NCBI RefSeq assembly: GCF_036227225.1 | Contig: NZ_CP109444.1 | Span: 10,645,501 to 10,709,500 of the forward strand | DNA length: 64,000 bases | Origin: Streptomyces sp. NBC_01478 | Lineage (GTDB): Bacteria > Actinomycetota > Actinomycetes > Streptomycetales > Streptomycetaceae | Reading direction: 5' to 3' | Shown here: positions 4,464 through 42,414 of the stretch, piece after piece | Position numbering within the stretch: position 1 is the stretch's first letter | Layout: the number at the start of each line of letters is the position of its first letter | Made by a program: the position numbers and the translations under genes | Notes under the pieces: generated by a model | Databases searched by the model: none | What the model was told of the DNA's origin: nothing | What the model saw: only the letters and a program-made list of their open reading frames with translations

Positions 4464-4502
4464 TTGTCGCGACTTTGACGCCGCATCAACGGGACCTTGA
4501 CG
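4464..4502 (-). promoter_or_regulatory. Tandem 11-bp response-regulator boxes upstream of the glnX-like gene
   Basis: Four half-sites start at 4464 (TTGTCG), 4475 (TTGACG), 4486 (TCAACG) and 4497 (TTGACG) on the plus strand, each exactly 11 bp from the next. Read in the direction of the gene, the strong ones are CGTCAA. Unlike most other sites in the window there is no 21-bp gap. The distance to the start codon is 91 bp. The 11-bp period is typical of OmpR-family binding. Confidence 0.65.
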
Positions 4503-4655
4503 CGGTGCCGAGGGGGTGGGCGGGACGGGAGAGCCGGGAGGGGCTGTCCGAACAGCCGACCCGTACGCGGGAGAACGAGACGGCGTCGGCGCCCGCCGTG
4601 CACATGCCGACGCCGCCCGCTCGTGTCGGCGGATCACTTCGTGAGAGATCGCCAA

Positions 4656-5060
4656 CTATCCGAGGAGCAGACCCGCGCCCAGGAGAATGAAGGCGGCGCC
4701 CAAGCCCGCCATCGCGTACTCCCATATCGCGCGCTCGCGGCCGTACAACACCAACTCGCGGGGATCTTCGGGGTCGTATCTGACGAGCACATGGCTGCCG
4801 TCGGTCAGAGGATGACGCCTGGACGCGGGTACGGGGGAGCTGACCTCCATGACCTTGCCATCCTCGGTCGTGTACTGCAGTACCGGCCGTCGGTCGTCCT
4901 CGCCCGCGATCGGGCCGGTGCGCTTCACCAGCGCCCACGCATCCACGCCCGCGCGGCCCAGTCGACGGATCCGGTGCAGACCGACGAGGCCCGTCAGCAG
5001 CGCGACCGTGCCACTCACGCCGGTGAATCCGGCCATCGTGATGACGGCTCCCTGCGGCAT
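4656..5060 (-). CDS. DUF3592 membrane protein
   Basis: Small membrane protein of 134 residues. It has one TM helix near the N-terminus, a soluble beta-rich central domain containing VLVRYDPEDPRELVLYG, and a second TM helix at the C-terminus. The motif and layout match the DUF3592 family, which has no established biochemical role. The start at 5060 (MPQGAV) is chosen because GGAGGGA lies 8 bases upstream. The frame is open 13 codons further, but without a ribosome site. It faces the same way as the DUF1707 gene upstream, with a 66-bp gap, and may be co-transcribed with it. Confidence 0.75.
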   Translation of the reverse strand: MPQGAVITMAGFTGVSGTVALLTGLVGLHRIRRLGRAGVDAWALVKRTGPIAGEDDRRPVLQYTTEDGKVMEVSSPVPASRRHPLTDGSHVLVRYDPEDPRELVLYGRERAIWEYAMAGLGAAFILLGAGLLLG

Positions 5061-5126
5061 CCGGGGTCTCCCTCCGTTGTGCGGAGTCCGTCCTTGCACG
5101 GTGAGTGTCCATCGTGCACGGGGGCC

Positions 5127-5669
5127 TCAGCGCCGGGCGTGGCGGATCTTCAGCCGTCCGTACCCCATGACTCCGGAGATCCGGATCCTCGGCCCGCCCG
5201 GAAGGGTGGGCCGCCGGGGCTTGTATCTCGGGTCCTTCCACTCGGTGCGCAGATCCTCGATCTCGACGATCGCGTCGCGAGGCACCGTGATTCTGGCCCT
5301 GCCGTACGGGAGTTGCAGCTCGATGTCGACGACAGGGTGCTCGAAGACCGCCCGGGACAGGTCCAGTTTGACCTTTCCGAATGCGGACTCGACCTTGAGG
5401 GTCCGCGGTACTCGCCATGCGCCGCGTCGCCGGATCCACCCGCTGGCGGCGGCGATTGTGGACGTGGTGGCAGGCTTCTCCGCCGGGAGCGAGACCATGG
5501 TTGACACGAGCTCGCCGTGCGTCGTGACGGTGAGCGCCTGGTGGAGGAGTCCGTCCATCTCCTTGTGCGAGATGTGCCCTTCGGCGTACGCCTCCTGCAG
5601 GCGCTGCACGGCCGTGTCGCGGTCGGCTTCGCTGATCCGTGGCGGCGGGTCTTCCGGCAGGGACGTCAC
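5127..5669 (-). CDS. DUF1707 (SHOCT-like) domain protein
   Basis: Begins with the DUF1707 segment ISEADRDTAVQRLQEAYAEG, a short helical domain frequent at the N-terminus of Streptomyces membrane-linked proteins. It is followed by a C-terminal beta-rich domain with VESAFGKVKLDLS, similar to the DUF1707-associated or LiaF-like fold. No TM helix is apparent. The start is uncertain: a GTG at 5669 places the domain right at the N-terminus, whereas the frame is open up to an ATG at 5879 with 70 extra residues of doubtful coding character. Function unknown. Confidence 0.7.
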   Translation of the reverse strand: MTSLPEDPPPRISEADRDTAVQRLQEAYAEGHISHKEMDGLLHQALTVTTHGELVSTMVSLPAEKPATTSTIAAASGWIRRRGAWRVPRTLKVESAFGKVKLDLSRAVFEHPVVDIELQLPYGRARITVPRDAIVEIEDLRTEWKDPRYKPRRPTLPGGPRIRISGVMGYGRLKIRHARR

Positions 5670-5919
5670 CGTTTCACTGTAGTGCGGCGCCGGCGGTGCG
5701 AACGTGCCGAGGCCCGCAGTGGGCAATGCATCCGAGGGGGAGGCCGACCGCTCGACAACCTGGCCTTGACCGTCCGACCCGCCGAACCCAAGTGGTCGTA
5801 GCACTGCCTCGCTCACGCGCGGGAGTTCGGCCGGGCCGCGCACTGCGGCTGAGCGCGCCGACCGCGAGCCGAACTTCATGGCCGCGGCGTGGAGTTCGGC
5901 TGAAGCGGCCGGTCGATTG

Positions 5920-6207
5920 TCAGTCCCCCTGCCCGTCTGCCGGTGCCTTCAGCAGCCGCTCCAGCTCGTCCCCGGCTTCGTCGTACCCGGCGTCGGAGAT
6001 CCGTTGCAGCTCGCGCAGGTCGCCGGTCGCCACCGCGCGTCGGGTGAGCAGGAACCCGGCGCGCATGGATCCCTCGTCCAACAGCTCGCTCAGCTCTCCG
6101 AGGTCGCCGGCCGCGTCGACGAGGTCGGCCAGCCGGTCCAGGGCGGTCTCGTTGCCCTCGTCGGCCAGCTCGCGCAAGGTCTCCCGGTCGATGTTCGTGT
6201 TCGCCAT
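5920..6207 (-). CDS. Small helical repeat protein divergent from merR
   Basis: A 95-residue acidic protein (MANTNIDRETLRELADEGNE). It looks like short alpha-helical repeats rich in Leu, Ala and Asp (DRLADLVDAAGDLGELSELL), reminiscent of Sel1 or armadillo-type solenoids. No catalytic motif is visible. It is transcribed divergently from the MerR gene, and its start lies just downstream of a symmetric CCCCTGGGG element within a TTGACC-type promoter. It is therefore a likely direct target of that regulator. I do not recognise a named function. Confidence 0.7.
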   Translation of the reverse strand: MANTNIDRETLRELADEGNETALDRLADLVDAAGDLGELSELLDEGSMRAGFLLTRRAVATGDLRELQRISDAGYDEAGDELERLLKAPADGQGD

Positions 6208-6215
6208 GCCCCCAT

Positions 6216-6246
6216 GCTGCAGCCCTGCCCCAGGGGAAAGGTCAAG
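6216..6246 (-). promoter_or_regulatory. MerR-type divergent promoter and operator
   Basis: Read on the minus strand, TTGACC (a -35-like box) is followed by a stretch with the palindrome CCCCTGGGG and then TGCAGC as a weak -10. The long spacer filled by a symmetric operator is the usual design of MerR-activated promoters. It sits between the 95-residue gene and the merR gene at 6262. Confidence 0.5.
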
Positions 6247-6261
6247 TGGGACGATGGCCGG

Positions 6262-7056: not shown

Positions 7057-7575
7057 TCAGGAAAGTCCCGACTCCCGTAGGACCGCCCGTGCCGTCTCGT
7101 CGTCGATGCGTCGGCCCAGTCGGTCGAGGACGTCTGCTCCCTGGCGGAGCGTTCCGCGTTCCAGGGAGCGGCGGACGCCCGTGTCCAGTTCGTGCCAGAG
7201 CAGGGGGTTGGCGGCGAGGACCCGGGGGTCGAGTTCCACGCTGTGGCCGTGGACGTCGCGCAGGACCAGGTGGGAGGAGACGCCCTCGTACTGTCGTACG
7301 GCTGCCAGGCCGTCCGTGCGGACCACGTGCCGGCGCCAAGGGGTCCGTACCGCCACCCAGCCGGGGCCCGCACTCACCCGCTGCGGCAGGAGGACGACGC
7401 ATACGGCGGCCGACATGGTGACCCAGAGCAGGGCGCGGAGTGGCGTCAGGCTTCCCGCGTCCCAGTCGACCAGAAGGCTCATGGCGCAGAACAGCAGGGC
7501 ACAGCTCACCGCCAGCCGGGCGCTGCCACGCCAGTGGCGGTCGCCGGCTTGGATCACCGGTCTGTTGTGCCTCAT
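7057..7575 (-). CDS. Two-TM PH-like membrane protein paired with APC permease (paralogue 1)
   Basis: A 172-residue protein. Two TM helices lie within residues 20-62, then a cytoplasmic domain of PH-like appearance (VSAGPGWVAVRTPWRRH, then LVLRDVHGHSVELDP) and a C-terminal helical tail. The start ATG is at 7575. A clear paralogue lies at 22309-22866, sharing VSAG-GW, VRTD, LLRD, VLxANPxLWH and ERxDxETA. Both copies sit beside an APC-type permease and have the same promoter repeats about 43 bp upstream of the start codon. The role is unknown. An accessory or regulatory subunit for the neighbouring transporter is an inference from repeated pairing. Confidence 0.75.
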   Translation of the reverse strand: MRHNRPVIQAGDRHWRGSARLAVSCALLFCAMSLLVDWDAGSLTPLRALLWVTMSAAVCVVLLPQRVSAGPGWVAVRTPWRRHVVRTDGLAAVRQYEGVSSHLVLRDVHGHSVELDPRVLAANPLLWHELDTGVRRSLERGTLRQGADVLDRLGRRIDDETARAVLRESGLS

Positions 7576-7617: not shown

Positions 7618-7666
7618 CTGACGGGCCCCTGACGGCGTACCGGCGAATCTTGACGGGATCCTGACG
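7618..7666 (-). promoter_or_regulatory. 11-21-11 direct-repeat array upstream of PH-like gene 1
   Basis: Plus-strand half-sites start at 7618 (CTGACG), 7629 (CTGACG), 7650 (TTGACG) and 7661 (CTGACG), spaced 11, 21 and 11 bp. In gene direction they read CGTCAGGATCCCGTCAA and so on. The array also lies directly behind the stop codon of the APC permease gene, so it must serve the PH-like gene independently. Confidence 0.75.
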
Positions 7667-7676
7667 GCGAGGCCGC

Positions 7677-9629
7677 TCAGCCGGTGTGGACGCGCGGTCG
7701 GCGGGTCCGGTCCGGTTCCGCCTCGCGCAGGACCTCGCGGGTGACCGGGGCGACCTCGCCCTGGCCGAAGAGGAAGAAGCGGAGGAAGTTGGCGAAGGGC
7801 CCGCCCTCGGTCCACTCGAAGTAGATGTGCGGGATGCAGCCTGTCGTGTCGCGGACGTGCAGTAGGAGCGCGGCCAGGGCGTTGGGGATGGAGGAGGACT
7901 CCAGGGTCAGCACCCGGTAGCGGTTGTGCAGCACCTCGCCGCGCACGGTGAGGCCCGCCTCGAACTCGGAGGCGTCGAGGACCGTCACCTCGACGAAGAC
8001 GAAGTCCTCTTGCTCGGGCAGGTCGTTGTCGTTGCGGATCTGTTCGATCTTGTCCCGGTACTCGGCCTTGTCGCGCCGGTCGGGCTCGTTGGCGAGGAAA
8101 CGGATCTTGCGGCTGGAGATGTCCCGGACGAACCGTTCCGCCATGGGGTCCAACTGCACGCTGGTGACGCGGAGTTCGAAGGCGCGGGCCAGCCGGGACA
8201 GCAGGGAGACCAGGATGATGCCGGCGATGAAGCAGGCGCCGATCTTGACGCCGTCGGGGCGCTCGACGACGTTCGCCCCGGTGACGTAGAGGAGGACCGC
8301 CGAGACGACGGCGAAGCCGATGGTCAAACCCTGCTGTCCGGCGCGGCGAGCGGCAATGGTCACCGCGATCGCCGCCGAGGACATAAGCACCAGGACACCG
8401 GTGGCGTAGGCGCCGCCCTGGGCGTCCACGTTCGCGTCGAAGATCCAGGTGACCAGGAAGCCGATCAGGGTGAAGACGATCACCATCGGCCGGACGGCGC
8501 GGGCCCAGTGCGGGGCCATGCCGTAGCGGGGGAGGTAGCGCGGCATGAGGTTGAGAAGGCCGGCCATCGCGGAGGCGCCTGCGAACCACAGGATGGCGAT
8601 CGTCGAGACGTCGTAGACCGTGCCGAAGGCGCCGCCCAGATACTGGTGCGCCAGATAGGCCAGGGCGCGGCCGTTGGCCCGGCCGCCGGACTCGAACTCC
8701 TTCTCCGGGATCAGCCATGTGGTGATGAAGCTGGTGGCGATCAGGAAGACGCTCATGATGATCGCGGCGGCGGTGAGCAGTTTCTTGGTGTCGCGGATAC
8801 GCCCCTTGGGGTTCTCCTCCGTGTCGCTGTCGTCGCCCTTCACATGGGGCATGACGGCGACCCCGGTCTCGAAGCCGGACAGGCCGAGTGCCAGCTTGGG
8901 GAAGACCAGCAGGGACACACCGACCATCGCGAACACGTTTCCGTGCTCGGCTGTCAATGCGCTCGACCAGTCGGTGACCACATGGCCCGCGGCGCCGACG
9001 TGCCACAGACCGACGATCACGACCACGACGTTCAGCGCGAGATAGACGGCCACGAGGACGACCGCGACGCCGATGGCCTCCAGGAAGCCCTTGAGGAACA
9101 CCGCGCCGAGCAGGGCCACGAGGACGAGGGTGATCAGCATTTGTTTGTCGTGCAGGGTGCTGGTCAGGTGCGGGTTCTCGACCAGGTGGGTTGAGGCGTC
9201 GGCGGCCGACAGGGTGATGGTGATCAGGAAGTCCGTCGCCGCGAACCCGAGCAGGGTCAGGACGAACAGCTTGCCCTTCCAGAACGACAGCAGCCGCTCC
9301 AGCATCGCGATGGAACCCTCACCGTGCGGGCTCTCCTCGGCCACCCGCCGGTAGACCGGCAGGGCGCCGGCCAGCGTGACCACGACGAGCACGATGGTCG
9401 CGATCGGGGAGAGCAGGCCGGCGGCGAGGGCCGCGATGCCGGGCTGGTAGCCGAGGGTGGAGAAGTAGTCGACACCGGTCAGGCACATGACCCGCCACCA
9501 GCGTTGGCCCTTGTGCGGGGGCTCCGGTTCGGCATGGGGTCCGGTGTGGCCGCCGGTCCTGCCCATGTCGGCCAGGCCCTCCAGCATCCACGCACGCATA
9601 CGACGCGGTGGGTGTTCGGTGGCGACCAT
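7677..9629 (-). CDS. APC-superfamily permease with cytosolic C-terminal domain
   Basis: A 650-residue integral membrane protein with about 12 TM helices up to residue 470, then a roughly 170-residue cytoplasmic domain. The first TM carries [23 protein letters not shown], typical of the APC fold where the broken first helix binds substrate. The start at 9629 (MVATEHPP) is supported by AGGAG 9 bases upstream. It is related to, but distinct from, the KimA-like permease at 23150. Both sit next to paralogous PH-like genes. Substrate is not shown. K+ or an amino acid are the two main options, with K+ favoured only by location. Confidence 0.8.
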
Positions 9630-9740: not shown

Positions 9741-9757
9741 CGTTAGGACTCCGTTAA
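9741..9757 (+). promoter_or_regulatory. Single pair of 11-bp repeats upstream of the APC permease
   Basis: CGTTAG at 9741 and CGTTAA at 9752 are 11 bp apart and match the CGTCAA consensus at 5 or 4 of 6 bases. The orientation is opposite to that seen at most other promoters relative to the gene it precedes (start 9629). It is a weaker member of the set. Confidence 0.4.
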
Positions 9758-9900: not shown

Positions 9901-11244
9901 TCAGACGCGGGTTGGGGTGGCGGCTTGCCGGGCCTCGCGGATGCAGGTGTCGAGGATGTCGATCGCGGTGTCGACGTCGGCGTCGCTGTGGTCCGCCATG
10001 GCCTGCATGCGGAAGCGTGCCGCGTCGGAGGCGACCGCCGGTTGTTCGACGAGGTGGGCGACGAGGCCGGCGCGGGCGATGAGGCCGGAGGCGGTACGGC
10101 CGGTGGGGGTGTCGCCGATGAGGACCGGGACGACCGGGCAGACCACGTCGCCCATGACCTCCAGACCGCGGGCGGTCAGTCCCTCGCGCAGGCGGGTGGC
10201 GACGGCCGCGACCGCCGCCCGACGCCGGGCACCCTCGGGCGAGTTCACGATGGACAGGGACGCGAGGGCCACCGCGGTCTGTACGGGGGTGATGGCGCTG
10301 GAGAAGGTCTGCGGGCCGCCGAACATCCGCACGAACTCCCGAGCCGAGGCCGACGGGGTCGCCAGGAATCCGCCGGTGGTGGCGAACGTCTTGGAGAAGG
10401 CACCGACCACGAAGTCGACCTTGCCGAGGATTCCGTGCACCTCCAGCTGGCCGCCGCCGGACTCGCCCATGGCACCGAAGTCATGGGCGACGTCGACCAT
10501 CAGCTGGGCGCCGAACTCGCGGCAGATGCCCAGCAGTTCGGCCAGTTGCGGGGTGTCGGAGTCCATGGAGAAGACGCCCTCGGTGACGACGAGGACGGCG
10601 TTGGTGGTGTCGGTGGCGCGGATGCCGGCCAGGTGGCGTCGTACGGCGTCGTTGTCGAGGTGCCGGAAGAACTCCACGGTCGCCCCGCTGGCGGCGGCGC
10701 CCTGGCGCAGCGAGTCGTGGGAGAGCTTGTCGAGCAGGATGTGGTCGCGGCGGTGCATCAAGGCCCGGATGGTGCCGAAGCCGGACGCCCAGCCGGTGGG
10801 GAAGAGTGCCACGTGCTCGGTGCGCAGGGCCTCGGCGAGACCGGCTTCCAGCGCCCTGCTGATGGGGGTCGCGCCGCCCAGGGCGGGGGAGCCGGCGGTG
10901 AGGGGGCCGTAGTCGCGCAGGGCCTGGTGGGCGGCGTCGAGGACGGTGGGGTGGCCGGTGAGGGACAGGTAGTCCTGGCCGCCGAAGTTGGGGCCCTCGG
11001 TGATCACGCCGGTGTCGGAGACGACGGTGGCGCGGGTGGTCAGGGCGGTGTCGTAGCGGCGGAAGTAGGGCCACAGGTCGGCCTGTTCGCGGTCCCGCTG
11101 CCAGGCGAGGTAGGCGTCGTTCCGGGTGGTGAGATCGGGTCCGGACACCGTGCGGAACCGCATGATGTCCTTCTCGCGGGCATCGGCCTGTCGGCCGTCG
11201 TCCGGCCCGGCCTGTGTGGGGGTGGCGGGCACAGTGGTCGTCAT
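9901..11244 (-). CDS. Alpha-oxoamine synthase family PLP enzyme (KBL/KAPA/SPT-like)
   Basis: A 447-residue fold-type I PLP enzyme. Visible landmarks are NFGGQDYLSLTGHP near the N-terminus, SPALGGATPISRALE, the Asp-rich strand MVDVAHDFGAMG, and the PLP lysine in GAFSKTFATTGGF. These match enzymes that condense an amino acid with an acyl-CoA and lose CO2: KAPA synthase, glycine C-acetyltransferase, ALA synthase, serine palmitoyltransferase. The substrate pair cannot be read from sequence. The start at 11244 has AGGAGAAG about 9 bases upstream. A complete 11-21-11 repeat array lies 115 bp upstream, linking it to the K+ genes. No biotin or heme genes are nearby, so a stress-related amino-ketone product is likelier than vitamin synthesis. 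Confidence 0.8.
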   Translation of the reverse strand: MTTTVPATPTQAGPDDGRQADAREKDIMRFRTVSGPDLTTRNDAYLAWQRDREQADLWPYFRRYDTALTTRATVVSDTGVITEGPNFGGQDYLSLTGHPTVLDAAHQALRDYGPLTAGSPALGGATPISRALEAGLAEALRTEHVALFPTGWASGFGTIRALMHRRDHILLDKLSHDSLRQGAAASGATVEFFRHLDNDAVRRHLAGIRATDTTNAVLVVTEGVFSMDSDTPQLAELLGICREFGAQLMVDVAHDFGAMGESGGGQLEVHGILGKVDFVVGAFSKTFATTGGFLATPSASAREFVRMFGGPQTFSSAITPVQTAVALASLSIVNSPEGARRRAAVAAVATRLREGLTARGLEVMGDVVCPVVPVLIGDTPTGRTASGLIARAGLVAHLVEQPAVASDAARFRMQAMADHSDADVDTAIDILDTCIREARQAATPTRV

Positions 11245-11358: not shown

Positions 11359-11407
11359 CTGACGGCTTCTTGATCGAATGGGAGCGCTTTCTAACGCCGG
11401 GCTGACG
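11359..11407 (-). promoter_or_regulatory. 11-21-11 direct-repeat array upstream of the oxoamine synthase
   Basis: Half-sites at 11359 (CTGACG), 11370 (TTGATC), 11391 (CTAACG) and 11402 (CTGACG) are spaced 11, 21 and 11 bp. In gene direction the strong ones read CGTCAG and CGTTAG. Two of the four are imperfect. Confidence 0.7.
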
Positions 11408-12677: not shown

Positions 12678-12720
12678 GGAAGCCGTCCCGCAGACTGCGA
12701 GCAAGCCCGATCGCCCTACC

Positions 12721-12758
12721 CTGACGGGCTTCTGACGTGCGCATACGTGTCCTTGACG
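12721..12758 (-). promoter_or_regulatory. Direct-repeat array upstream of the small ORF/SDR/bL37 unit
   Basis: Half-sites at 12721 (CTGACG), 12732 (CTGACG) and 12753 (TTGACG) are spaced 11 and 21 bp. The fourth expected position, 12764, does not match. In gene direction the order is CGTCAAGG, then two CGTCAG units. Confidence 0.65.
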
Positions 12759-15285: not shown

Positions 15286-15334
15286 CGTCAAGGCCCCGTC
15301 AAACAATGCCGACCAGCCGTCAGGAGGGCGTCAA
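15286..15334 (+). promoter_or_regulatory. 11-21-11 direct-repeat array upstream of GlnX-like gene 2
   Basis: Half-sites at 15286 (CGTCAA), 15297 (CGTCAA), 15318 (CGTCAG) and 15329 (CGTCAA), spaced 11, 21 and 11 bp, all in gene orientation. The last unit is 88 bp from the GTG start. One of the best matches in the window. Confidence 0.8.
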
Positions 15335-18820: not shown

Positions 18821-18869
18821 CGTCAAGGCAGTGTCAAGGTCCGCGGGACCGGCGCCAAGGAAGCGCTAA
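18821..18869 (+). promoter_or_regulatory. 11-21-11 direct-repeat array upstream of KdpD-like gene 1
   Basis: Half-sites at 18821 (CGTCAA), 18832 (TGTCAA), 18853 (CGCCAA) and 18864 (CGCTAA), spaced 11, 21 and 11 bp in the direction of the gene at 18986. The match weakens along the array, but the spacing is exact. Confidence 0.7.
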
Positions 18870-22907: not shown

Positions 22908-22945
22908 TTGATGAGCCTCTGACGGATATCCGCTACTTCTTGACG
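22908..22945 (-). promoter_or_regulatory. Direct-repeat array upstream of PH-like gene 2
   Basis: Plus-strand half-sites at 22908 (TTGATG), 22919 (CTGACG) and 22940 (TTGACG), spaced 11 and 21 bp. The fourth position is not conserved. Same orientation and distance to the start codon as in the paralogous promoter at 7618. Confidence 0.65.
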
Positions 22946-23005
22946 CCCTGACCGCGGTACATGGGAGTCCCAGCGGCGGAACGGCAGTTGCGCAGGTCAC
23001 ACGGC

Positions 23006-23022
23006 CGTCAAGGTCCCGTCAA
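23006..23022 (+). promoter_or_regulatory. Perfect 11-bp repeat pair upstream of the KimA-like gene
   Basis: CGTCAAGGTCC occurs at 23006 and again as CGTCAAGGTCT at 23017. This is the clearest tandem unit in the window and defines the half-site CGTCAAGGTC. No second pair was found at plus or minus 21 bp. Confidence 0.7.
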
Positions 23023-23149
23023 GGTCTGGCCCCTCGGCGCGAAGATGCCGCAAGGAGCGGTCGGAAGCGACGGGATTCGGACAGAACCTGGAGTGCACCG
23101 CGCACTCTTCAGCCCCTGTGCGTGGCCCTGGAAGAAGGAGCACGCGCCC

Positions 23150-25043: not shown

Positions 25044-25092
25044 CGTAAGAGTTCCGTCAAAGGTGTACGACACGCCGTAAGGGACCCGTCAA
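25044..25092 (+). promoter_or_regulatory. 11-21-11 direct-repeat array upstream of kdpFABC
   Basis: Half-sites at 25044 (CGTAAG), 25055 (CGTCAA), 25076 (CGTAAG) and 25087 (CGTCAA), spaced 11, 21 and 11 bp. The array consists of two copies of a CGTAAG/CGTCAA pair. It ends 100 bp before the first start codon of the operon. As KdpE activates kdpFABC in all studied bacteria, this is the best argument that the array is a KdpE site. Confidence 0.8.
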
Positions 25093-25192: not shown

Positions 25193-25276
25193 ATGGCCGA
25201 TCTGGCCTTCGTCGTCACCACGATCGCGGTGTTCGCGCTGGTGGCCCTCGTCGCCAAGGGGGTGACGAAGCTGTGA
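25193..25276 (+). CDS. 27-residue single-TM miniprotein preceding kdpF
   Basis: ATG at 25193 with TAGGAG 6 bases upstream. The product starts [21 protein letters not shown] and ends KGVTKL: one hydrophobic helix with a basic tail. Its stop overlaps the kdpF GTG start (GTGA at 25273), so the two are translationally coupled. The size resembles KdpF, suggesting an extra small subunit or stabiliser of the Kdp complex. Function is not known. Confidence 0.75.
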
Positions 25277-25362
25277 CCGCCGAGAACATCGTCGGCCTCG
25301 TCGTGGCCGTCGCCCTGCTGGGCTATCTCGTCCTCGCCCTGATCTTCCCGGAGAGGTTCTGA
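25273..25362 (+). CDS. kdpF: KdpF, small stabilising subunit of the K+ pump
   Basis: A 29-residue single-TM protein (GTG start, [20 protein letters not shown], ending PERF). The sequence and the position directly before kdpA match KdpF, which stabilises the KdpABC complex in the membrane. The start overlaps the stop of the 27-residue gene, and the stop is 8 bp before the kdpA ATG. Confidence 0.88.
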
Positions 25363-25370
25363 GACAAGAC

Positions 25371-27035
25371 ATGGGTCCCGTACTTGCCGGCGTCCTCCAG
25401 TTGCTCGCCCTGATAGGAGCACTGGCACTCGCCTACGTCCCCCTTGGCAACTACATGGCCAAGGTCTACTCCTCCGACAAGCACTGGCGTGTCGAGAAGT
25501 GGATCTACAAGGGCATCGGTGCCAACCCCGACACCGAGATGCGCTGGCTCGCGTATCTGCGCGGCGTGCTGGCCTTCTCCGCGGTAGGCGTTCTCTTCCT
25601 CTACCTGCTCCAGCGGATTCAGGGCGTGCTGCCCGGTTCGCTCGGCTTCTCCGCGATCTCGCCGGCGCAGGCGTTCAACACGGCTGCTTCCTTCGTCACC
25701 AACACCAACTGGCAGTCGTACTACGGCGAGCAGGCCATGGGCCACGTCGTACAGACCGCCGGTCTGGCCGTGCAGAACTTCGTCTCCGCCGCTGTCGGCA
25801 TCGCCGTCGCGGTGGCTCTCGTGCGCGGCTTCGCGCGCTCGCGTACCGGTGAACTCGGCAACTTCTGGGCCGACTTGGTGCGCGGCGTCATTCGCATCCT
25901 GATCCCCGGTTCGATCATCGCCGCGCTCGTGCTGGTCGCCTGCGGTGCGATCCAGAACTTCTCCGGCATTCACGAGGTCGGTCAGTTCATGGGCGGCCAC
26001 CAGCAGTGGAACGGCGGCGCGGTCGCTTCCCAGGAGGCGATCAAGGAGTTCGGTACCAACGGTGGCGGTTACTTCAACGCCAACTCCGCCCACCCCTTCG
26101 AGAACCCGACCCCGTTCACGAACCTCTTCGAGATCTTCCTGCTGCTGGTCATCCCGTTCTCGCTGACCCGCACGTTCGGTGTGATGGTCGGGAGCGTGAA
26201 GCAGGGGTACGCGATTCTCGCCACCATGGCCACCATCTGGGTCGGCTTCGTCGCCCTGATGATGTGGACCGAGTTCGCCCACCACGGCGCGGCGCTCCAG
26301 GCCGCCGGTGGTGCGATGGAGGGCAAGGAGTCCCGGATCGGTGTCGGCGCCTCCTCGATCTTCGCGGTGTCGACGACGCTGACCTCGACGGGCGCGGTGG
26401 ACTCCTTCCACTCCTCGTTCACCGGGCTCGGCGGCGGAATCACCATCCTGGGCATGCAGTTGGGCGAGATCGCACCCGGTGGTACCGGCTCCGGTCTCTA
26501 CGGAATGCTGATCATGGCGGTCATCGCGGTGTTCATCGCCGGGCTCATGGTCGGCCGTACGCCCGAGTACCTGGGCAAGAAGATCGGCACCCGCGAGATG
26601 AAGCTCGCGGCCTGCTACATCCTGATCACCCCGGCCCTGGTACTGATCTTCGCCGCCGCCTCCATGGCGCTGCCGACCCCGCCGCACTCCATGCTGAACT
26701 CCGGCGCGCACGGCTTCTCCGAAGTGCTGTACGCCTTCACCTCCGCCGCCAACAACAACGGCTCCGCCTTCGCAGGCCTGAACGCGAACACCGACTGGTA
26801 CAACACCATGACCGGACTCGCGATGGTCCTCGGCCGCTTCCTGCCGATGGTGTTCGTGCTGGCGCTGGCCGGTTCGCTCGCCGAGCAGAAGCCGGTCCCG
26901 GCGACGGCGGGCACCCTGCGCACCGAAAAGCCGCTGTTCACGGGTCTGCTGGTGGGCGCGATTCTGATCATCACCGGTCTGACGTACTTCCCGGCGCTGG
27001 CGCTGGGGCCGCTGGCCGAGGGGCTGGCGTCATGA
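25371..27035 (+). CDS. kdpA: KdpA, K+-binding and translocating subunit
   Basis: A 554-residue membrane protein, typical length for KdpA. It belongs to the K+ channel-like transporter superfamily: four repeats contribute selectivity-filter loops, seen here as [24 protein letters not shown] and [11 protein letters not shown]. It binds extracellular K+ and passes it through the KdpA-KdpB tunnel. Its stop overlaps the kdpB start (ATGA at 27032). Nothing unusual was seen. Confidence 0.95.
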
Positions 27036-29176
27036 CCACCCGCATAGACGACCAAGAAAACCAAGAGGACTCGATGTCCACTGCCACTCCGACCCGGGCG
27101 CCGCACAGCGATGTGCCGACCGGTCACAAGGACGAAGGCAAGGTCGGCGCGGGTCTGTTCGACCCGAAGCAGCTGATCAAGTCCCTGCCGGACGCTCTTC
27201 GCAAGCTCGACCCGCGGGTGATGGTCAAGTCCCCCGTGATGTTCGTGGTCCTCGTCGGCTCGGTGCTGACGACGATCTTCTCCTTCAAGGACCCGGGCGA
27301 CTGGTTCGGCTGGGCGATCAGCGTCTGGCTGTGGCTGACCGTCATCTTCGCCAACCTGGCGGAGGCCGTCGCCGAGGGCCGCGGCAAGGCGCAGGCCGAC
27401 ACCCTGCGCAAGGCCAAGACCGACACGGTCGCGCGGCGTCTGGGCAAGGACGGCAAGACCGAGGAGCAGGTGCCCGGCACCGAGCTCACGATCGGCGACC
27501 TGGTCGTGTGCGAGGCGGGCGACATCATCCCCGGCGACGGTGACGTCGTAGAGGGCGTTGCGAGTGTCGACGAGTCGGCGATCACCGGCGAATCGGCGCC
27601 CGTCATCCGTGAGTCCGGCGGCGACCGCTCGGCCGTCACCGGCGGTACGAAGGTTCTCTCCGACCGCATCGTCATCAAGATCACGACGAAGCCCGGCGAG
27701 ACCTTCATCGACCGGATGATCGCCCTGGTCGAGGGCGCCGCCCGGCAGAAGACGCCCAACGAGATCGCGCTGAACATCCTGTTGGCCTCGCTGACGATCG
27801 TCTTCCTCCTCGCGGTGGCGACCCTGCCGCCGTTCGCGGACTACGCGGGCACGCACCTCACGATGGTCGTGCTGGTGGCCCTGCTGGTCTGTCTGATCCC
27901 GACGACGATCGGCGCGCTCCTGTCCGCGATCGGTATCGCGGGTATGGACCGACTGGTGCAGCGCAACGTTCTGGCGATGTCGGGCCGTGCGGTCGAGGCC
28001 GCAGGTGACGTGTCGACGCTGCTGCTGGACAAGACCGGCACCATCACCCTCGGCAACCGCCAGGCGTCGGAGTTCGTGCCGGTGTCCGGCACCACCGAGG
28101 CCGAGTTGGCGGATGCCGCCCAGCTTTCCTCGCTGGCCGACGAGACGCCCGAGGGCCGTTCCATCGTCGTCCTGGCGAAGGAGAAGTACGGCCTGCGCGA
28201 GCGCCACCAGGGCGAGCTGGCAAATGCCGAGTGGATCGCCTTCACCGCCCAGACCCGCATGTCGGGTGTCGACGTGGACGGGCGCAAGACCCGTAAGGGC
28301 GCGGCCGGTTCGGTCATCACCTGGGTCAAGGAGCAGGGCGGTACCGTCTCCGAGGACGCCGACACCCTCGCCAACCGCATCTCGGAAGCCGGTGGCACCC
28401 CGCTGCTCGTGGCTGTCGAGGACGACAACGGTGCCCGGATCCTGGGCGTCATCCATCTCAAGGACGTCGTCAAGGAAGGTATGCGCGAGCGGTTCGACGA
28501 GCTGCGCCGCATGGGCATCAAGACCATCATGATCACGGGCGACAACCCGCTGACCGCCAAGGCGATCGCGGAAGAAGCGGGCGTCGACGACTTTCTCGCG
28601 GAGGCCACTCCCGAGGACAAGATGGCCCTGATCAAGCGGGAGCAGGCCGGCGGCAAGCTGGTCGCGATGACCGGCGACGGCACGAACGACGCCCCGGCCC
28701 TCGCGCAGGCGGACGTCGGCGTGGCGATGAACACGGGTACGTCGGCCGCGAAGGAGGCCGGCAACATGGTCGACCTCGACTCGAACCCGACCAAGCTCAT
28801 CGAGATCGTCGAGATCGGCAAGCAACTCCTCATCACCCGGGGCGCGTTGACGACGTTCTCCATCGCCAACGACGTCGCGAAGTACTTCGCGATCATCCCG
28901 GCGCTGTTCGCGGCCGTCTACCCGGGCCTGGACAAGCTCAACATCATGCACCTGGCCTCGCCCGACTCCGCGATCCTGTCGGCCGTCATCTTCAACGCGC
29001 TCGTCATCATCGCGCTGGTGCCGCTCTCCCTTCGAGGTGTGCAGTACAAGCCGGTGAGCGCGGACAAGATGCTGCGGCGCAACCTCACGATCTATGGCCT
29101 CGGCGGCCTGATCGCGCCCTTCATCGGCATCAAGATCATTGACCTGCTCATCTCCCTCATCCCCGGAATCGGCTGA
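27032..29176 (+). CDS. kdpB: KdpB, catalytic P-type ATPase subunit
   Basis: A 714-residue P-type ATPase. Motifs: TGES in the actuator domain, [13 protein letters not shown] with the phosphorylated Asp, KGAAGSV in the nucleotide-binding domain, [10 protein letters not shown] in the hinge, and NDVAKYFA in the membrane. Translation probably starts at 27032, overlapping the kdpA stop. The ATG at 27074 (MSTATPT), which has AGAGGA upstream, is an equally good choice and would give 700 residues. The orphan copy at 12787-14940 shares nearly all of these motifs. Confidence 0.95.
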
Positions 29177-29181
29177 TCGGC

Positions 29182-29850
29182 ATGAACAACTCGGTTACGA
29201 ACACCGCCCGGTTGCTCTGGGCCGGTCTGCGGGCCCTCCTGGTACTCACCGTGGTGACGGGCGTCATCTACCCGCTCGCCGTCACGGGGATTGCCCAGGC
29301 GCTGTTCAACAACAAGGCGAACGGCTCGGAGATCAAGGCGGACGGCAAGGTCGTCGGCTCCTCCCTCATCGGGCAGTCGTACAACCTGCCGTTGAAGAAG
29401 GGCCAGGAGACCCCGGACCCGGATCTGAAGTGGTTCCAGGGCCGCCCGCAGAACGGACTCGGCACCAACAGCATCAACACGCAGTACTCGTTGATCCTGT
29501 CCGGCGCCACCAACCTCTCCGCCGACAGCAAGGTACTCCTCCAGCAGGTGAAGGACGCCAAGGCCGCCGTCATCAAGGACAACTCGGTGCCCGGCTACAC
29601 GGTCAAGGCGTCCCAGGTGCCCGCCGACGCGGTCACCTCCTCCGGCTCCGGACTCGACCCGGACATCTCCCCGGCGTACGCGGACCTCCAGGCCCACCGC
29701 ATCGCCGAGAAGAACGGGCTGTCCGTCGCCCAGGTGCAGAAGCTGGTCGACGACCACACCGACGGCCGCACCCTCGGCTTCATCGGCGAGCCCACGGTGA
29801 ACGTCCTGGAACTCAACATCGCGCTCAAGTCCCTTGTGACGAAGAGCTGA
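29182..29850 (+). CDS. kdpC: KdpC, K+-transporting ATPase subunit C
   Basis: A 222-residue protein with one N-terminal TM helix (LRALLVLTVVTGVIYPLAVTG) and an extracytoplasmic domain with GRPQNGLGTNSINTQYS, DAVTSSGSGLDPDISP and the C-terminal NVLELN. This is the normal KdpC architecture. KdpC raises the K+ affinity of the pump. It begins 5 bp after kdpB and ends before a strong hairpin. Confidence 0.95.
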   Translation: MNNSVTNTARLLWAGLRALLVLTVVTGVIYPLAVTGIAQALFNNKANGSEIKADGKVVGSSLIGQSYNLPLKKGQETPDPDLKWFQGRPQNGLGTNSINTQYSLILSGATNLSADSKVLLQQVKDAKAAVIKDNSVPGYTVKASQVPADAVTSSGSGLDPDISPAYADLQAHRIAEKNGLSVAQVQKLVDDHTDGRTLGFIGEPTVNVLELNIALKSLVTKS

Positions 29851-29986: not shown

Positions 29987-30670
29987 ATGACCAGGGTGTT
30001 GGTGGTGGAGGACGACCCGCAGCTCGTACGGGCCCTCGTAATCAACATGCAGGCACGCCATTACGGCGTCGACGCGGCGCCCGACGGCGCCACCGCGCTC
30101 CGGCTCGCGGCGGCGCGACAGCCCGACGTGGTGATGCTCGACCTCGGACTGCCCGACATGGACGGCGTCGACGTCATCAAGGCGCTGCGCGGCTGGACCC
30201 GGGTCCCGATCCTGGTCTTGTCGGCCCGGCAGGCGTCGGATGAGAAGGTCGCCGCGCTCGACGCGGGCGCGGACGACTACATCACGAAGCCGTTCAGCAT
30301 GGACGAGCTTCTGGCCCGCCTGCGAGCCGCTGTCCGCCGTAGGGAGGACACGCCGCTCGTTCCGGAGTCGACCGTGGTGGAGACCGACGAGTTCACCGTC
30401 GATCTGCGTGCCAAGAAGGCGACGCGGGGCGGACATGACATCCGGCTGACCCCGACCGAATGGCACCTGCTGGAGATCCTGATCACCAACCCCGGCCGCC
30501 TGATCACCCAGAAGCACCTGCTCCAAGAGGTCTGGGGGGTGTCCCAGAGCAACAAGACCAACTACCTGCGGGTCTACATGGCCCAGTTGCGCCGCAAACT
30601 GGAGACGGACCCCGCCCACCCCCGCTATCTGATCACCGAGCCCGGCATGGGCTACCGCTTCGAAGGATGA
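29987..30670 (+). CDS. kdpE: KdpE, OmpR-family response regulator
   Basis: A 227-residue regulator. The receiver domain (1-120) has the acidic pair EDD at 8-10, phospho-acceptor Asp in VVMLDLGLPDMDG (residue 52) and Lys in YITKPF. The C-terminal winged helix has LTPTEWHLLEILITNPG and YLRVYMAQLRRKLE. It starts at the ATG at 29987 with AAAGG upstream. It is the only OmpR-family regulator in the window and the natural candidate to bind the 11-bp repeats found at a dozen promoters. No clear array lies directly upstream of it. Confidence 0.92.
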   Translation: MTRVLVVEDDPQLVRALVINMQARHYGVDAAPDGATALRLAAARQPDVVMLDLGLPDMDGVDVIKALRGWTRVPILVLSARQASDEKVAALDAGADDYITKPFSMDELLARLRAAVRRREDTPLVPESTVVETDEFTVDLRAKKATRGGHDIRLTPTEWHLLEILITNPGRLITQKHLLQEVWGVSQSNKTNYLRVYMAQLRRKLETDPAHPRYLITEPGMGYRFEG

Positions 30671-30672: not shown

Positions 30673-33216
30673 ATGGGACGCGGCAAGCTCCGGATCTACC
30701 TCGGCGCGGCACCGGGCGTCGGCAAGACGTACGCGATGCTCTCCGAGGCACACCGGCGCGTGGAACGCGGCACCGACTGCGTGATCGCCTTCGTGGAACA
30801 CCACGGCCGGCCGCGCACCGAGGTGATGCTGCACGGCCTGGAGGAGATCCCGCGCCGCGAACTGGAGTACCGGGGCACGACGTTCACCGAGATGGACATC
30901 GACGCCGTCCTGGCCCGGAACCCCCAGGTGGCGATGGTCGACGAGCTGCCCCACACCAACGTCCCCGGCTCCCGCAACACCAAGCGCTGGCAGGACGTCG
31001 AGGAACTCCTCGCGGCCGGAATCGACGTCGTCTCGACCGTCAACATCCAGCATCTTGAGTCGCTCGGCGACGTCGTCGAGTCCATCACCGGCGTACGGCA
31101 GCAGGAGACCGTGCCCGACGAAGTCGTACGCCGGGCCGACCAGATCGAGCTCGTCGACATGTCGCCGCAGGCGCTCCGCCGCCGGATGGCGCACGGCAAC
31201 ATCTACAAGCCGGACAAGGTCGACGCGGCCCTCTCGAACTACTTCCGGCCCGGAAACCTCACCGCCCTGCGGGAGTTGGCGCTGCTGTGGGTGGCCGACC
31301 GGGTCGACGCCTATCTGACCGAGTACCGCAGTGAGCATCAGGTGTCGACGATCTGGGGCTCGCGGGAGCGGATCGTGGTGGGCCTGACTGGCGGGCCGGA
31401 GGGCCGGACACTGATCCGCCGGGCCGCGCGCCTCGCCGAAAAGGGCGCCGGCGGCGAGGTGTTGGCTGTCTACATCTCGCGCAGTGACGGCCTGACCTCC
31501 GCCTCGCCCAAGGAACTGGCCGTCCAGCGAACACTGGTGGAGGATCTGGGCGGCACGTTCCATCAGGTCGTCGGCGACGACGTCTCGGCCGCGCTGCTGG
31601 ACTTCTCCCGCGGGGTGAACGCCACCCAGATCGTGATGGGTGTCTCCCGGCGCAGGAGCTGGCAGTACGTGTTCGGGCCCGGCGTCGGCTCGACGGTCGC
31701 CCGTGAGTCCGGACCCGATCTCGACGTCCACCTCATCACGCACGACGAGGTGGGCAAGGGACGCGGACTGCCCGTGAACCGGGGCGCGCGGCTCGGCCGG
31801 CCCAGGCTCATCTGGGGCTGGCTCGTGGGCGTGCTGGGCCCCGTCCTGCTCACCCTTCTGCTGACCAGCGCCACCCCGGCTGTCGGCCTCGCCAACGACA
31901 TGCTGCTCTTCCTCACCCTGACCGTCGCGGCGGCTCTGCTCGGCGGACTCCTCCCCGCGCTGGCCTCGGCGGCGGTGGGATCGCTGCTGCTGAACTGGTA
32001 CTTCACCCCGCCCGTCCACACGTTCACCATCGCCGACCCCAAGAACATCGTCGCCATCGCGATCTTCGTCGGTGTGGCCGTCTCCGTGGCCTCGGTGGTG
32101 GACCTCGCCGCCAGGCGCACCGATCAGGCGGCCCGGCTGCGCGCCGAGTCCGAGATCCTGTCCTTCCTCGCGGGCAGCGTGCTGCGCGGCGAGACCAGCC
32201 TGGAGGCTCTGCTGGAGCGGGTGCGGGAGACCTTCGGCATGGAGTCGGTGGCGCTGCTGGAACGGGCCGGCGAGCTGGATCCGTGGACCTGCGCGGGCAG
32301 TGTCGGCCCCCGTCCCTGCCAGAACCCCGAGCACGCGGACGTCGATGTGCCGGTCGGCGACCACATGTCCCTGGCCTTGTCGGGGCGCGTACTGCCGGCC
32401 TCCGACCGCCGGGTGCTCGCCGCGTTCGCCGCCCAGGCCGTTGTCGTCCTGGACCGCCGGCGCCTACAGCAAGAGGCCGACCAGGCCAAGGAGTTGGCCG
32501 AGGGCAACCGCATCCGCACCGCGCTGCTGGCCGCCGTCAGCCACGACCTCCGTACCCCACTGGCCGGGATAAAGGCGGCCGTCACGTCTCTGCGCTCCGA
32601 CGACGTCGACTGGTCGGAGGAGGACCGGGCGGAGCTCTTGGAAGCCATTGAGGCGGGCGCCGACCGCCTCGACCAACTGGTGGGCAACCTGCTCGACATG
32701 TCCCGCCTGCAGACCGGCACGGTGACCCCCATCATCCGCGAGACCGACCTCGACGAGGTCGTGCCGATGGCGCTGGTCGCGGTGCCGGAGGACAGCGTGG
32801 AACTGGACATCCCGGAGACGCTGCCCATGGTCCACGTGGATCGGGGGCTGCTGGAGCGGGCCGTCGCCAACATTGTGGAGAACGCGGTCAAGTACAGCCC
32901 GCCGGAGGAGAAGGTCCTCGTGTCGGCGAGCGCCATCGCGGACCGGGTCGAGGTGCGTGTGGTGGACCGCGGGCAGGGTGTCCCCGACGAGGCCAAGGAC
33001 CGCATCTTCGAGCCCTTCCAACGCTATGGCGACTCTCCGCGCGGCGCCGGGGTCGGCCTCGGCCTGGCCGTGGCCCGCGGCTTCACGGAAGCCCTGGGCG
33101 GCACCCTGAGCGCGGAGGACACACCGGGCGGCGGACTCACGATGGTGCTCAGCCTGCCGACAGCACCGGAGCGCCGGCCGGAGCAGCCGGATCTGTCGGC
33201 CGCGGTCACGCCCTGA
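30673..33216 (+). CDS. kdpD: KdpD sensor histidine kinase 2, partner of KdpE
   Basis: An 847-residue kinase with the full KdpD plan: Walker A GAAPGVGKT in the N-terminal domain, the NYFRPGNLTALRELALLW motif, USP-like domain, four TM helices (about 380-480), GAF-like region, HisKA with SHDLRTPLAG (His near residue 624) and ATPase motifs NIVENAVKYSPP and GVGLGLAVARG. The kdpE stop overlaps an ATG at 30667. The ATG at 30673 has AAGGA at proper distance and is preferred. It is paralogous to the sensor at 18986 over its whole length. This copy is the expected cognate sensor of KdpE. Confidence 0.92.
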   Translation: MGRGKLRIYLGAAPGVGKTYAMLSEAHRRVERGTDCVIAFVEHHGRPRTEVMLHGLEEIPRRELEYRGTTFTEMDIDAVLARNPQVAMVDELPHTNVPGSRNTKRWQDVEELLAAGIDVVSTVNIQHLESLGDVVESITGVRQQETVPDEVVRRADQIELVDMSPQALRRRMAHGNIYKPDKVDAALSNYFRPGNLTALRELALLWVADRVDAYLTEYRSEHQVSTIWGSRERIVVGLTGGPEGRTLIRRAARLAEKGAGGEVLAVYISRSDGLTSASPKELAVQRTLVEDLGGTFHQVVGDDVSAALLDFSRGVNATQIVMGVSRRRSWQYVFGPGVGSTVARESGPDLDVHLITHDEVGKGRGLPVNRGARLGRPRLIWGWLVGVLGPVLLTLLLTSATPAVGLANDMLLFLTLTVAAALLGGLLPALASAAVGSLLLNWYFTPPVHTFTIADPKNIVAIAIFVGVAVSVASVVDLAARRTDQAARLRAESEILSFLAGSVLRGETSLEALLERVRETFGMESVALLERAGELDPWTCAGSVGPRPCQNPEHADVDVPVGDHMSLALSGRVLPASDRRVLAAFAAQAVVVLDRRRLQQEADQAKELAEGNRIRTALLAAVSHDLRTPLAGIKAAVTSLRSDDVDWSEEDRAELLEAIEAGADRLDQLVGNLLDMSRLQTGTVTPIIRETDLDEVVPMALVAVPEDSVELDIPETLPMVHVDRGLLERAVANIVENAVKYSPPEEKVLVSASAIADRVEVRVVDRGQGVPDEAKDRIFEPFQRYGDSPRGAGVGLGLAVARGFTEALGGTLSAEDTPGGGLTMVLSLPTAPERRPEQPDLSAAVTP

Positions 33217-41157: not shown

Positions 41158-41640
41158 GACGCCTCACCATCTCTCACGGGCAAGGGTCCGGCAGACCGGA
41201 CCTCCGGCGACAACACCCCGGCCCAACTCCCGCCAGAGTCAACCTGTTTCGAGATCCAACACCAGCAATGACAGCAACTGACCATTCGAAAGCGGAACGG
41301 ACACATGAACCGTTCACCAAAGCGTTTATCCCAACGCTTGGACGAACGCTTCCTCCGAACCACCCACGCCCTGCGGCGGCACCAGGCCGAGCAGTACACC
41401 GCACTGCTGCGGTGATCCACCCCGGCCATCCAGACCGCCCCGCACACCGGACACACCCGCCGCAACCGGCGCCACTGCCTGGAACGACACACCCCGAGCA
41501 GAACACCGCCCGCGGCCCGGCGCCCGGACTCAGCCAGTCACCGCAGCCCGGACAACGCCGCCCGCGTACAGGCCCGTTGATCTCGGCCACCAAACCAGAC
41601 TGGACCCACCCAAAGATCCATACCGGAGGTTGAGAAACGG
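41154..41640 (-). pseudogene. Frameshifted zinc-ribbon protein remnant
   Basis: Two Cys motifs of the type CPxCG ... YCSxxCRxRxW are in different frames: RCPGCGDWLSPGAGPRAVFCSG in one frame and CRSRQWRRLRRVCPVCG ... VYCSAWCRRRAW in another, from about 41492 onward. Joined, they would give a tandem zinc-ribbon protein. The break is near 41495. A GTG at 41492 could still give a 112-residue product. No known role. Confidence 0.4.
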
Positions 41641-41644
41641 GCAC

Positions 41645-42211
41645 TCAGGCATCAGGCGGCACGGTCTCGAACTCCTTCTCCACGTGCCCGGTGTCCAATC
41701 GCAGCCGCCAGGCGTTCCGGCGGTGCGCGGCGGCCAGTTCGGCCTCCAAGGGGGACGGCGGCACAGCGAGGACGGGACAGGTGGCGTGCGCGAGGCAGTA
41801 GCGGCCGACCGACGGCCACAGGGCGCGGTGCAGGCGACCGCGAGGTCCGGCGCCGATGACGAGGAGGTCGTCCTCGCGGTCGGCGATCTCGACCAGCGCC
41901 CGGCCCGGGGAACCTCGGACAACTAGGGCCTCCGCCGCAAGTCCCGTGCCCGTGCTGCCGAACACGTCAACGAGCGCCGCGACCAGCCGCTCCCGCGCCA
42001 GCCGTTTCCACTCCTCGACCAGGTAGGACGCAGCCGGTGAACGACGTGCGGAGAGATCCCCGCCGGGCGGCTCCCAGGCCAGCACCGGCCACAACTCGGC
42101 ACCCCTGTGCCGTGCTTCGTCGGCGGCCCGGCACAGGGTGGTAAGACTGCTCACGGAGCCGCTCACTCCGACCACGACACGAGCGGCTGAGGGTGAGTCG
42201 GACTCGGACAT
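41645..42211 (-). CDS. Universal stress protein (UspA family)
   Basis: A 188-residue USP-domain protein. It begins with the first beta strand ARVVVGVSGSVSSL, and the ATP-binding motif region reads LLVIGAGPRGRLHRALWPSVGRYCLAHATCPVLAV, close to the G-x2-G-x9-G(S/T) pattern. A 40-residue C-terminal tail follows. The ATG at 42211 (MSESDSP) is preferred over the GTG at 42229. A repeat pair at 42322-42338 reads in its direction. USP proteins of this type are induced by stress or hypoxia. Confidence 0.82.
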   Translation of the reverse strand: MSESDSPSAARVVVGVSGSVSSLTTLCRAADEARHRGAELWPVLAWEPPGGDLSARRSPAASYLVEEWKRLARERLVAALVDVFGSTGTGLAAEALVVRGSPGRALVEIADREDDLLVIGAGPRGRLHRALWPSVGRYCLAHATCPVLAVPPSPLEAELAAAHRRNAWRLRLDTGHVEKEFETVPPDA

Positions 42212-42321
42212 CACTTCACCGTTCTCCACGCGCCGGCGGTCGGTTCCCGCCGACGATCCTCATCGGAACGCCTCCCATCCCACTCCTCGGCGAGGCATTC
42301 GAAAAGCCCACGGACCACTTC

Positions 42322-42338
42322 TTGGCGCCCCTCTGACG
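42322..42338 (-). promoter_or_regulatory. 11-bp repeat pair facing the universal stress gene
   Basis: TTGGCG at 42322 and CTGACG at 42333 are 11 bp apart; in gene direction CGTCAG then CGCCAA. There is no second pair. The distance to the USP start codon is 111 bp, comparable with the other promoters. Confidence 0.45.
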
Positions 42339-42365
42339 GACGCCGCCCGGGCCGCTCACCAGGCA

Positions 42366-42414
42366 CGTCAGCATCTCGTCAACGTCGTCCCGTTCACCGT
42401 CAGCATCCCGTCAG
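42366..42414 (+). promoter_or_regulatory. 11-21-11 direct-repeat array upstream of SAV_915/decarboxylase
   Basis: Half-sites at 42366 (CGTCAG), 42377 (CGTCAA), 42398 (CGTCAG) and 42409 (CGTCAG), spaced exactly 11, 21 and 11 bp, all in gene orientation. It ends 100 bp before the ATG at 42515, the same distance as in kdpFABC. It lies 17 kb away from the kdp operon. Confidence 0.78.

Follow-up and report, generated by a model that had tools for sequence, protein, structure and literature searches.

A four-half-site direct-repeat element upstream of kdp and other genes of Streptomyces is very probably read by KdpE

As known from other organisms, K+ limitation or osmotic stress causes the sensor kinase KdpD to phosphorylate the response regulator KdpE. 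The Escherichia coli KdpE site at kdpFABC (kdpFABC-BS) is described in PMC3264566 as two 6-bp direct half-sites with a 5-bp gap, bound by the KdpE DNA-binding domain at a 2:1 protein-to-DNA ratio, with arginines R193 and R200 in the recognition helix. For Mycobacterium smegmatis, PMC5401905 gives CCGTAAAGAAACCATCAAGGCC, a 22-bp motif upstream of kdpF, as the minimal KdpE site in electrophoretic mobility shift and footprint assays, and reports SigF-type -10 and -35 regions for the kdpFABC promoter. The M. tuberculosis regulator PhoP binds direct repeats of 7-bp motifs with a 4-bp spacer (PMC4832192). A review from 2023 (PMC10117811) stated that KdpDE was unanalysed in any Streptomyces model, and referred to unpublished data of its authors according to which KdpDE was dispensable for S. 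venezuelae development and growth with 0.5 M NaCl or KCl; among the titles listed in searches of the open-access literature, no study of a Streptomyces KdpE regulon or binding site was found. Here, we analysed a stretch of 64,000 nucleotides (henceforth the window; bases 10,645,501–10,709,500 of a 12.12-Mb Streptomyces genome, with Streptomyces also the source of the close named relatives of one window protein), which carries kdpFABC, kdpE, and kdpD together with a repeated promoter element. We consider it highly probable that this element is the operator of KdpE, occupied by two dimers in an activator position and serving a regulon that extends beyond kdpFABC.

The element consists of four half-sites with the consensus CGTCARnR at offsets 0, 11, 32, and 43, i.e., of two CGTCAR-N5-CGTCAR pairs at a pair-to-pair distance of 32 bp. 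A preliminary description made from the letters of the window had proposed it as an 11-21-11 direct repeat defining a regulon around kdp, and the repeat proved to be real at the positions it named. Exact CGTCAA-N5-CGTCAA was found twice in the window (0.01 expected by shuffling), and 17 matches were found with up to two mismatches (4.5 expected). With up to three mismatches, the 0/11/32/43 element occurred 11 times in the whole genome, five times within the window (7618 and 11359 on the minus strand; 15286, 25044, and 42366), and once as a reversed control. A scoring matrix compiled from 64 sites, all from other genomes, yielded seven window positions of at least 20 bits, six of them of at least 30 bits, and a top score of about 52 bits, compared to 13.0 bits as the best score among 100 dinucleotide shuffles of the window. 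A sequence-only model was built on the same 64 sites and used to scan the 12.1-Mb genome, whereby 150 of 20,970 first-look candidates were scored, resulting in 90 matches. Among the candidates scored, 11 matches had E < 0.001, six in the window (7618, 25044, 15286, 42366, 18821, and 23006) and five at 2.30 Mb and 9.19 Mb, at loci with genes homologous to those of the window (the genes downstream being a second kdpA, genes of the 22309 and 7057 types, a Usp gene, and a second decarboxylase operon). In the genome scan that the preliminary description had set as a check, the 11 strongest matches were all located upstream of regulon genes or their paralogs, an outcome in favour of its interpretation. 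Next in rank were two matches at E of about 0.04 and 0.05, followed by 4464, 12721, a match at 9.22 Mb in the promoter of a paralog of the second GlnX-like gene, and one at 8.607 Mb, a short distance ahead of a third kdpDE.

The sites differed in completeness (Table 1). Six full sites had been claimed; 7618, 15286, 25044, and 42366 were strong, and 18821 and 11359 turned out to be degenerate, the latter not being among the 90 model matches described above. The position 23006, previously listed as a single pair, is a full four-half-site element, the second pair of which is degenerate (CGCGAAG/CGCAAGG) as in KimA promoters elsewhere. The partial nature of 12721, 22908, and 4464 was retained, with half-sites 0, 21, and 32 at the first two and a weak 11-bp tandem run at 4464, as was the single pair at 42322. 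The lone pair at 9741 exists (16.2 bits) and was dropped as a site, there being no called gene ahead of it. Related promoters were frequently more complete: the paralog of 22908 at 2.30 Mb reached a model E of 1e-5, and four homologs in other genomes fitted the full pattern with two to three mismatches; the paralogous promoter of 15286 at 9.22 Mb fitted with one mismatch; full elements were present in the Usp paralog promoter at 9.19 Mb (model E 1.6e-6) and, in another genus of the family, ahead of a homolog of the GlnX-like gene 2769–4154; and homologous promoters of 18821 were read at three loci, one of them the genome's own paralog. Based on gene calls from our own codon scorer, all listed window elements were intergenic. 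For 11359 and the six strongest sites, the next start lay at a distance of about 42 to 117 bp; the exception is 15286, with about 88 or 232 bp according to which start codon the GlnX-like gene uses.

Across 199 Streptomyces genomes, the element with up to three mismatches was matched 387 times compared to 16 times for the reversed control, and 147 genomes were positive. Sites were read for 30 of the 387 matches as loci, for the first 80 others listed, for ten loci of a kdpF-specific pattern (one duplicate), and for the 11 of the own genome, and the removal of identical sites left 130 unique sites with downstream genes. At 110 of these, the next gene on the same strand (107) or the following one (3) was a homolog of a window gene, with the first called gene being more than 400 bp away in five cases; excluding the own 11 sites, the figure was 99 of 119 (96 as the very next gene). 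Only one of the 130 sites was located within a called gene. The largest classes of downstream homologs were kdpA (39), the decarboxylase operon 42515/42904 (23), and the 7057 family (15), followed by the second GlnX-like gene and KimA (5 each), Usp and the 22309 family (4 each), the second KdpD, kdpE, kdpD, and the second KdpB (3 each), and three others with one each, of which one is a doubtful 36% match. The claim of a regulon wider than kdpFABC was thereby strengthened, as the same gene set carries the element in other Streptomyces. The strict pattern undercounts kdpF-type sites, as CGTAAG and CGTATG are scored as mismatches; the kdpF-specific pattern was found in 81 of 121 genomes of the family and 13 of 17 genera, with zero control matches in every row. 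As an alternative, CGTCA words could be enriched by chance in G+C-rich intergenic DNA, given that the half-sites are short and degenerate and that lone pairs such as 9741, or some of the three-mismatch matches (16 control vs 387), may have arisen by chance, but the whole-genome scan, the reversed-pattern control, the shuffles, and the conserved downstream genes leave this almost no probability as an overall account. The strong sites are not due to chance.

KdpE is very probably the binder of the element, judging from its sequence and its distribution. The kdpE product (29987–30670) was closest to KdpE, with a stronger match to structure 4kny (Table 1) than to regX3 (E 1.6e-45). Its DNA-binding domain was 60–61% identical to those of three mycobacterial KdpE records, and its recognition helix TNYLRVYMAQLRRKLE nearly equals the mycobacterial THYLRVYLAQLRRKLE (E. 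coli KdpE, SHYLRIYMGHLRQKLE); both arginines of YLR...LR, seven residues apart, were conserved in the alignment and were mapped to E. coli R193 and R200. KdpE orthologs (E ≤ 1e-75) were present in 194 of the 199 genomes, and no element was detected by pattern or by model (E ≤ 0.01) in the five genomes without one. The pattern was positive in 0 of 5 genomes with no KdpE copy, 86 of 128 with one, 50 of 55 with two, and 11 of 11 with three (Fisher p 0.001). Of 47 KdpE-positive genomes missed by the pattern, 31 were positive by the model at the same threshold, and 22 of 30 such model-rescued loci preceded kdpA, kdpB, or kdpD. The earlier choice of KdpE as the binder was thus supported by the M. 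smegmatis footprint, by the geometry upstream of kdpA in other families (see below), and by the KdpE-negative genomes. Its premise that KdpE is the only OmpR-family regulator held within the window but not genome-wide: 53 KdpE-like matches (E ≤ 1e-10) were obtained, and three KdpE copies plus about 34 more full-length KdpE-like regulators were counted. One of these others could own the 11-bp repeat and control kdp along with the remaining genes, considering that OmpR-family regulators often bind 11-bp direct repeats, as M. tuberculosis PhoP does (PMC4832192). However, it was the footprint of KdpE that matched the element in M. smegmatis (PMC5401905), the share of positive genomes climbed from zero with the KdpE copies, the element persists at kdpF beyond the genus, and the five next-best regulators encoded in this genome have different recognition helices, rendering another regulator very unlikely.

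The M. smegmatis site, as given in PMC5401905, reads CGTAAA-N5-CATCAA plus flanks, in the same register as CGTAAG-N5-CGTCAA at 25044, and this 22-mer scored 21.0 bits with the Streptomycetaceae pair matrix, compared to 19.9 bits for the 99.99th percentile of sampled window positions. An exact 19-base pattern of the mycobacterial site retrieved 11 loci from the named genome collection, three of which were mycobacterial kdp promoters and none of which was titled M. smegmatis. Of 118 genomes of the class, 54 had kdpA; 48 of these do not belong to Streptomyces, and 24 of the non-Streptomyces loci were read. A pair of at least 10 bits was located within 600 bp upstream in 20 loci, and its best partner in the range of 15–80 bp was exactly 32 bp away in 16 of these (43 bp in two, 33 bp in one, and 52 bp in one). 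Three mycobacterial records (two M. asiaticum and Mycobacterium sp. ACS4331) had the known pair plus one half-site 21 bp upstream, the partial form seen at 22908 in the window. In Mycobacterium sp. ACS4331, a 51% homolog of the decarboxylase was encoded directly upstream of the kdpF promoter; by gene neighborhood, the LysA-like decarboxylase may be tied to kdp beyond Streptomyces.

The half-sites were conserved, while the N5 and N15 spacers were variable, as would be expected of binding sites. Inert repeats were rejected as a candidate explanation, since the spacers diverge and the half-sites stay. A related possibility is that KdpE controls only kdpFABC and kdpDE, and that a diverged paralogous system reads the other sites (e.g., the second KdpD-like kinase working with another partner), or that these are inert copies left by duplication of the K+ island. 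Part of the island is indeed duplicated at 2.29–2.31 Mb, and the second KdpD-like kinase of the window has no regulator gene directly adjoining; nevertheless, the same non-kdp genes carry sites on other contigs or far from kdp (e.g., in three genomes, G036, G164, and G190), the half-sites are kept next to variable spacers, and the three KdpE copies of the genome have identical recognition helices, such that a restriction of KdpE to kdp is highly improbable.

A -10-like TANNNT started at offset 77–79 in 38 of 110 sites, i.e., 28–30 bp downstream of the element, with only two occurrences at other offsets between 49 and 109; the 7618 element, for instance, has TAGCGT 29 bp downstream, and kdpF promoters have a TTTYCT-like element at the TANNNT position. 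The element consequently ends a few bases before the expected -35, which is the position of an activator contacting RNA polymerase directly, and the pair distance of 32 bp corresponds to three helical turns, placing all four half-sites on one face of the DNA. The number of half-sites matches two KdpE dimers (four protomers) rather than the four dimers suggested before. In the proposed mechanism, K+ limitation or osmotic stress would lead KdpD to phosphorylate KdpE in Streptomyces, two head-to-tail KdpE dimers would bind the two pairs in tandem, presumably cooperatively, and KdpE would activate promoters with a poor -35. The predicted regulon would comprise kdpFABC, kdpDE, the KimA symporter, the second KdpD, the second KdpB, and the two-transmembrane (two-TM) proteins as well as the GlnX-like proteins, Usp, and the LysA-like decarboxylase operon.

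Several observations weigh against this assignment. At 20 of the 130 sites, the next gene was not a window-gene homolog on the same strand (for four of them, kdpA is nonetheless the first gene on the strand of the site, the next called frame lying on the other strand), and 72 of 110 sites had no TANNNT at the fixed position. Eight of the 30 model-rescued loci were not at kdp genes, and no element was found by pattern or model in 16 of the 194 KdpE-positive genomes. The co-occurrence with KdpE is partly confounded, as KimA, the sole other target searched in the five KdpE-negative genomes, was represented by only a 38–39% relative in three of them, and one of the five genomes is 81% complete. 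Within the class, four of the 24 loci had no scorable pair and four more had the best partner at another distance. The half-site is unlike the TTTAYA of E. coli KdpE although the recognition helix is similar, and a search of the open-access literature for binding or expression data on any Streptomyces KdpE found none.

Table 1 Features of the window (coordinates from the first base of the window)
Feature	Position	Strand	Details
Candidate KdpE element, four half-sites, before kdpFABC operon	25044..25092	+	51.8 bits; model E 3.6e-8; kdpA upstream equivalents in other Streptomyces and other families
Candidate KdpE element before 172-aa two-TM protein gene 7057-7575	7618..7666	-	0 mismatches; 52.5 bits
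Candidate KdpE element before second GlnX-like gene 15566-16990	15286..15334	+	0 mismatches; 44.3 bits
Candidate KdpE element before 42515-42865 and LysA-like decarboxylase 42904-44238	42366..42414	+	0 mismatches; 42.5 bits; -10-like TAACGT
Candidate KdpE element before second KdpD-like kinase 18986-21511	18821..18869	+	Degenerate; 38.7 bits; model E 1e-5
Candidate KdpE element before KimA-family K+ symporter gene 23150-24991	23006..23054	+	33.2 bits; model E 5e-4
Degenerate element before BioF/oxoamine-synthase-like gene 9901-11244	11359..11407	-	3 mismatches; 21.2 bits; -10-like TAGCGT
Partial element (half-sites 0, 21, 32) before two-TM protein gene 22309-22866	22908..22956	-	19.2 bits; model E 0.5
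Partial element (half-sites 0, 21, 32)	12719..12758	-	Pair 21.8 bits; model E 0.075; 15.3 bits as full element in another register
Tandem run, four half-sites at 11-bp steps, before GlnX-like gene 2769-4154 and PknG 58-2661	4464..4502	-	Weak; model E 0.068
Single pair before Usp gene 41645-42229	42322..42338	-	17.9 bits
27-aa one-TM open reading frame overlapping kdpF start	25193..25276	+	Conserved
kdpF, kdpA, kdpB, kdpC	25273..29850	+	TIGR02115/PF09604, TIGR00680, TIGR01497, NF010599, all above cut-off
kdpE, proposed regulator	29987..30670	+	Response_reg and Trans_reg_C (longer start); E. coli-type KdpE structure 4kny, E 1.9e-63
kdpD sensor kinase	30673..33216	+	KdpD, Usp, DUF4118, HisKA, HATPase_c (longer start)

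Besides kdp, the window holds a KimA-family symporter, a second KdpD-like kinase, a Na+/H+ antiporter, a second KdpB, an APC-type permease, two GlnX-like proteins, PknG, Usp, and the LysA-like decarboxylase. A second copy of much of this potassium island (kdpABC, kdpE, kdpD, KimA, the second KdpD, the antiporter, the APC permease, and a two-TM protein) is located on the same chromosome at 2291145–2309000 with about 76–97% protein identity. The product of 23150–24991 aligned with the KimA structure 6s3k across residues 21–606 (E 1.2e-120). At another locus (L149, 1393–3270, minus strand), the next gene after the element, ahead of KimA, encoded a protein of 625 aa with TrkA-N domains that may be a K+ channel or regulate one. 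The second KdpB (12787–14940, minus strand) matched TIGR01497 with 989 bits, KdpA and KdpC were not called alongside, and its homologs in three other genomes carry their own element. The proteins encoded at 2769–4154 (minus strand, adjoining pknG) and 15566–16990 scored 212.2 and 248.2 bits, respectively, against NCBIfam NF058618 (cut-off 250); the matches were nearly full-length but below the cut-off, and the proteins are called GlnX-like rather than members of the GlnX family. A plasmid search with the second of them yielded four records, which were left out of the analysis. The small two-TM proteins encoded at 7057–7575 and 22309–22866 (both minus strand) had no Pfam match and belong to one family, with a paralog at 2.30 Mb matching both; genes of this family were among the commonest downstream of the element. 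The permease encoded at 7677–9587 was named an APC family/amino acid transporter after named relatives, and no solved-structure relative was found for it. Downstream of the decarboxylase operon, an ABC permease and ATPase were encoded with an MgtC-family protein (45878–49800), and no position in this region reached 5 bits with the element matrix.

The 27-aa open reading frame at the kdpF start had no match in Pfam or NCBIfam. A similar frame preceded kdpF in 24 of 30 kdpA loci of the class (24 of the 25 loci in which kdpF was recognised), and small hydrophobic frames of 25–27 aa likewise preceded kdpF in three mycobacterial records, a region that would lie in the leader published as the M. smegmatis 5′ untranslated region. 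The frame possibly encodes an overlooked Kdp micro-subunit.

The targets, i.e., a high-affinity pump, a symporter, sensors, two-TM proteins, and metabolic and signaling genes, suggest a K+ programme. Glutamate is the usual counter-ion of K+, and PknG and the GlnX-like proteins might link K+ to glutamate. The regulon may also extend to demethylmenaquinone methyltransferase and thus quinone synthesis, as the full element preceded a gene for this enzyme in five genomes (one assigned by families, the other four alike by eye), at five of the 20 sites not followed by a window-gene homolog. More tentatively, and with slightly less confidence than doubt, we propose that, in the class, the form with four half-sites is the ancestral KdpE operator. 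The 22-bp motif published for mycobacteria would then represent just the promoter-proximal portion, and transcription would be activated by a complex of two dimers. Streptomycetaceae would have recruited this operator to a K+-limitation programme coupling K+ uptake to glutamate signaling (PknG, GlnX-like) and amino-acid decarboxylation, perhaps making organic cations that replace K+. If true, a one-pump switch would become a K+ programme of general scope in a large genus that produces antibiotics, the mycobacterial motif would be recast as part of a larger operator, and PknG/GlnX-like signaling and the LysA-like decarboxylase would come under potential K+ control. The site matrix, the target list, and the promoter geometry are now open to direct experiment.

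The half-site of the Streptomyces PHO box is GTTCACC-like with phosphate genes as targets, and the consensus CGTCARnR did not conform to it. With M. tuberculosis PhoP sites (PMC4832192), the element shares the 11-bp direct repeats and, if read by KdpE, a regulator of the OmpR family. The E. coli KdpE site, as described in PMC3264566, has the same 6 + 5 geometry and 11-bp period but consists of one AT-rich pair (TTTATA/TTTACA), whereas the element has two pairs 32 bp apart with C/G-containing half-sites (CGTCAR/CGTAAG), and hence did not conform to the E. coli type TTTAYA either. The element resembles the M. smegmatis kdpFABC site (PMC5401905), where CGTAAA and CATCAA recur at an 11-bp distance ahead of kdpF; there, a single 22-bp motif at one promoter is described, in contrast to four half-sites and many targets in Streptomyces. 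What would be new is a regulator of a known class acting through a doubled operator on a much larger set of genes.

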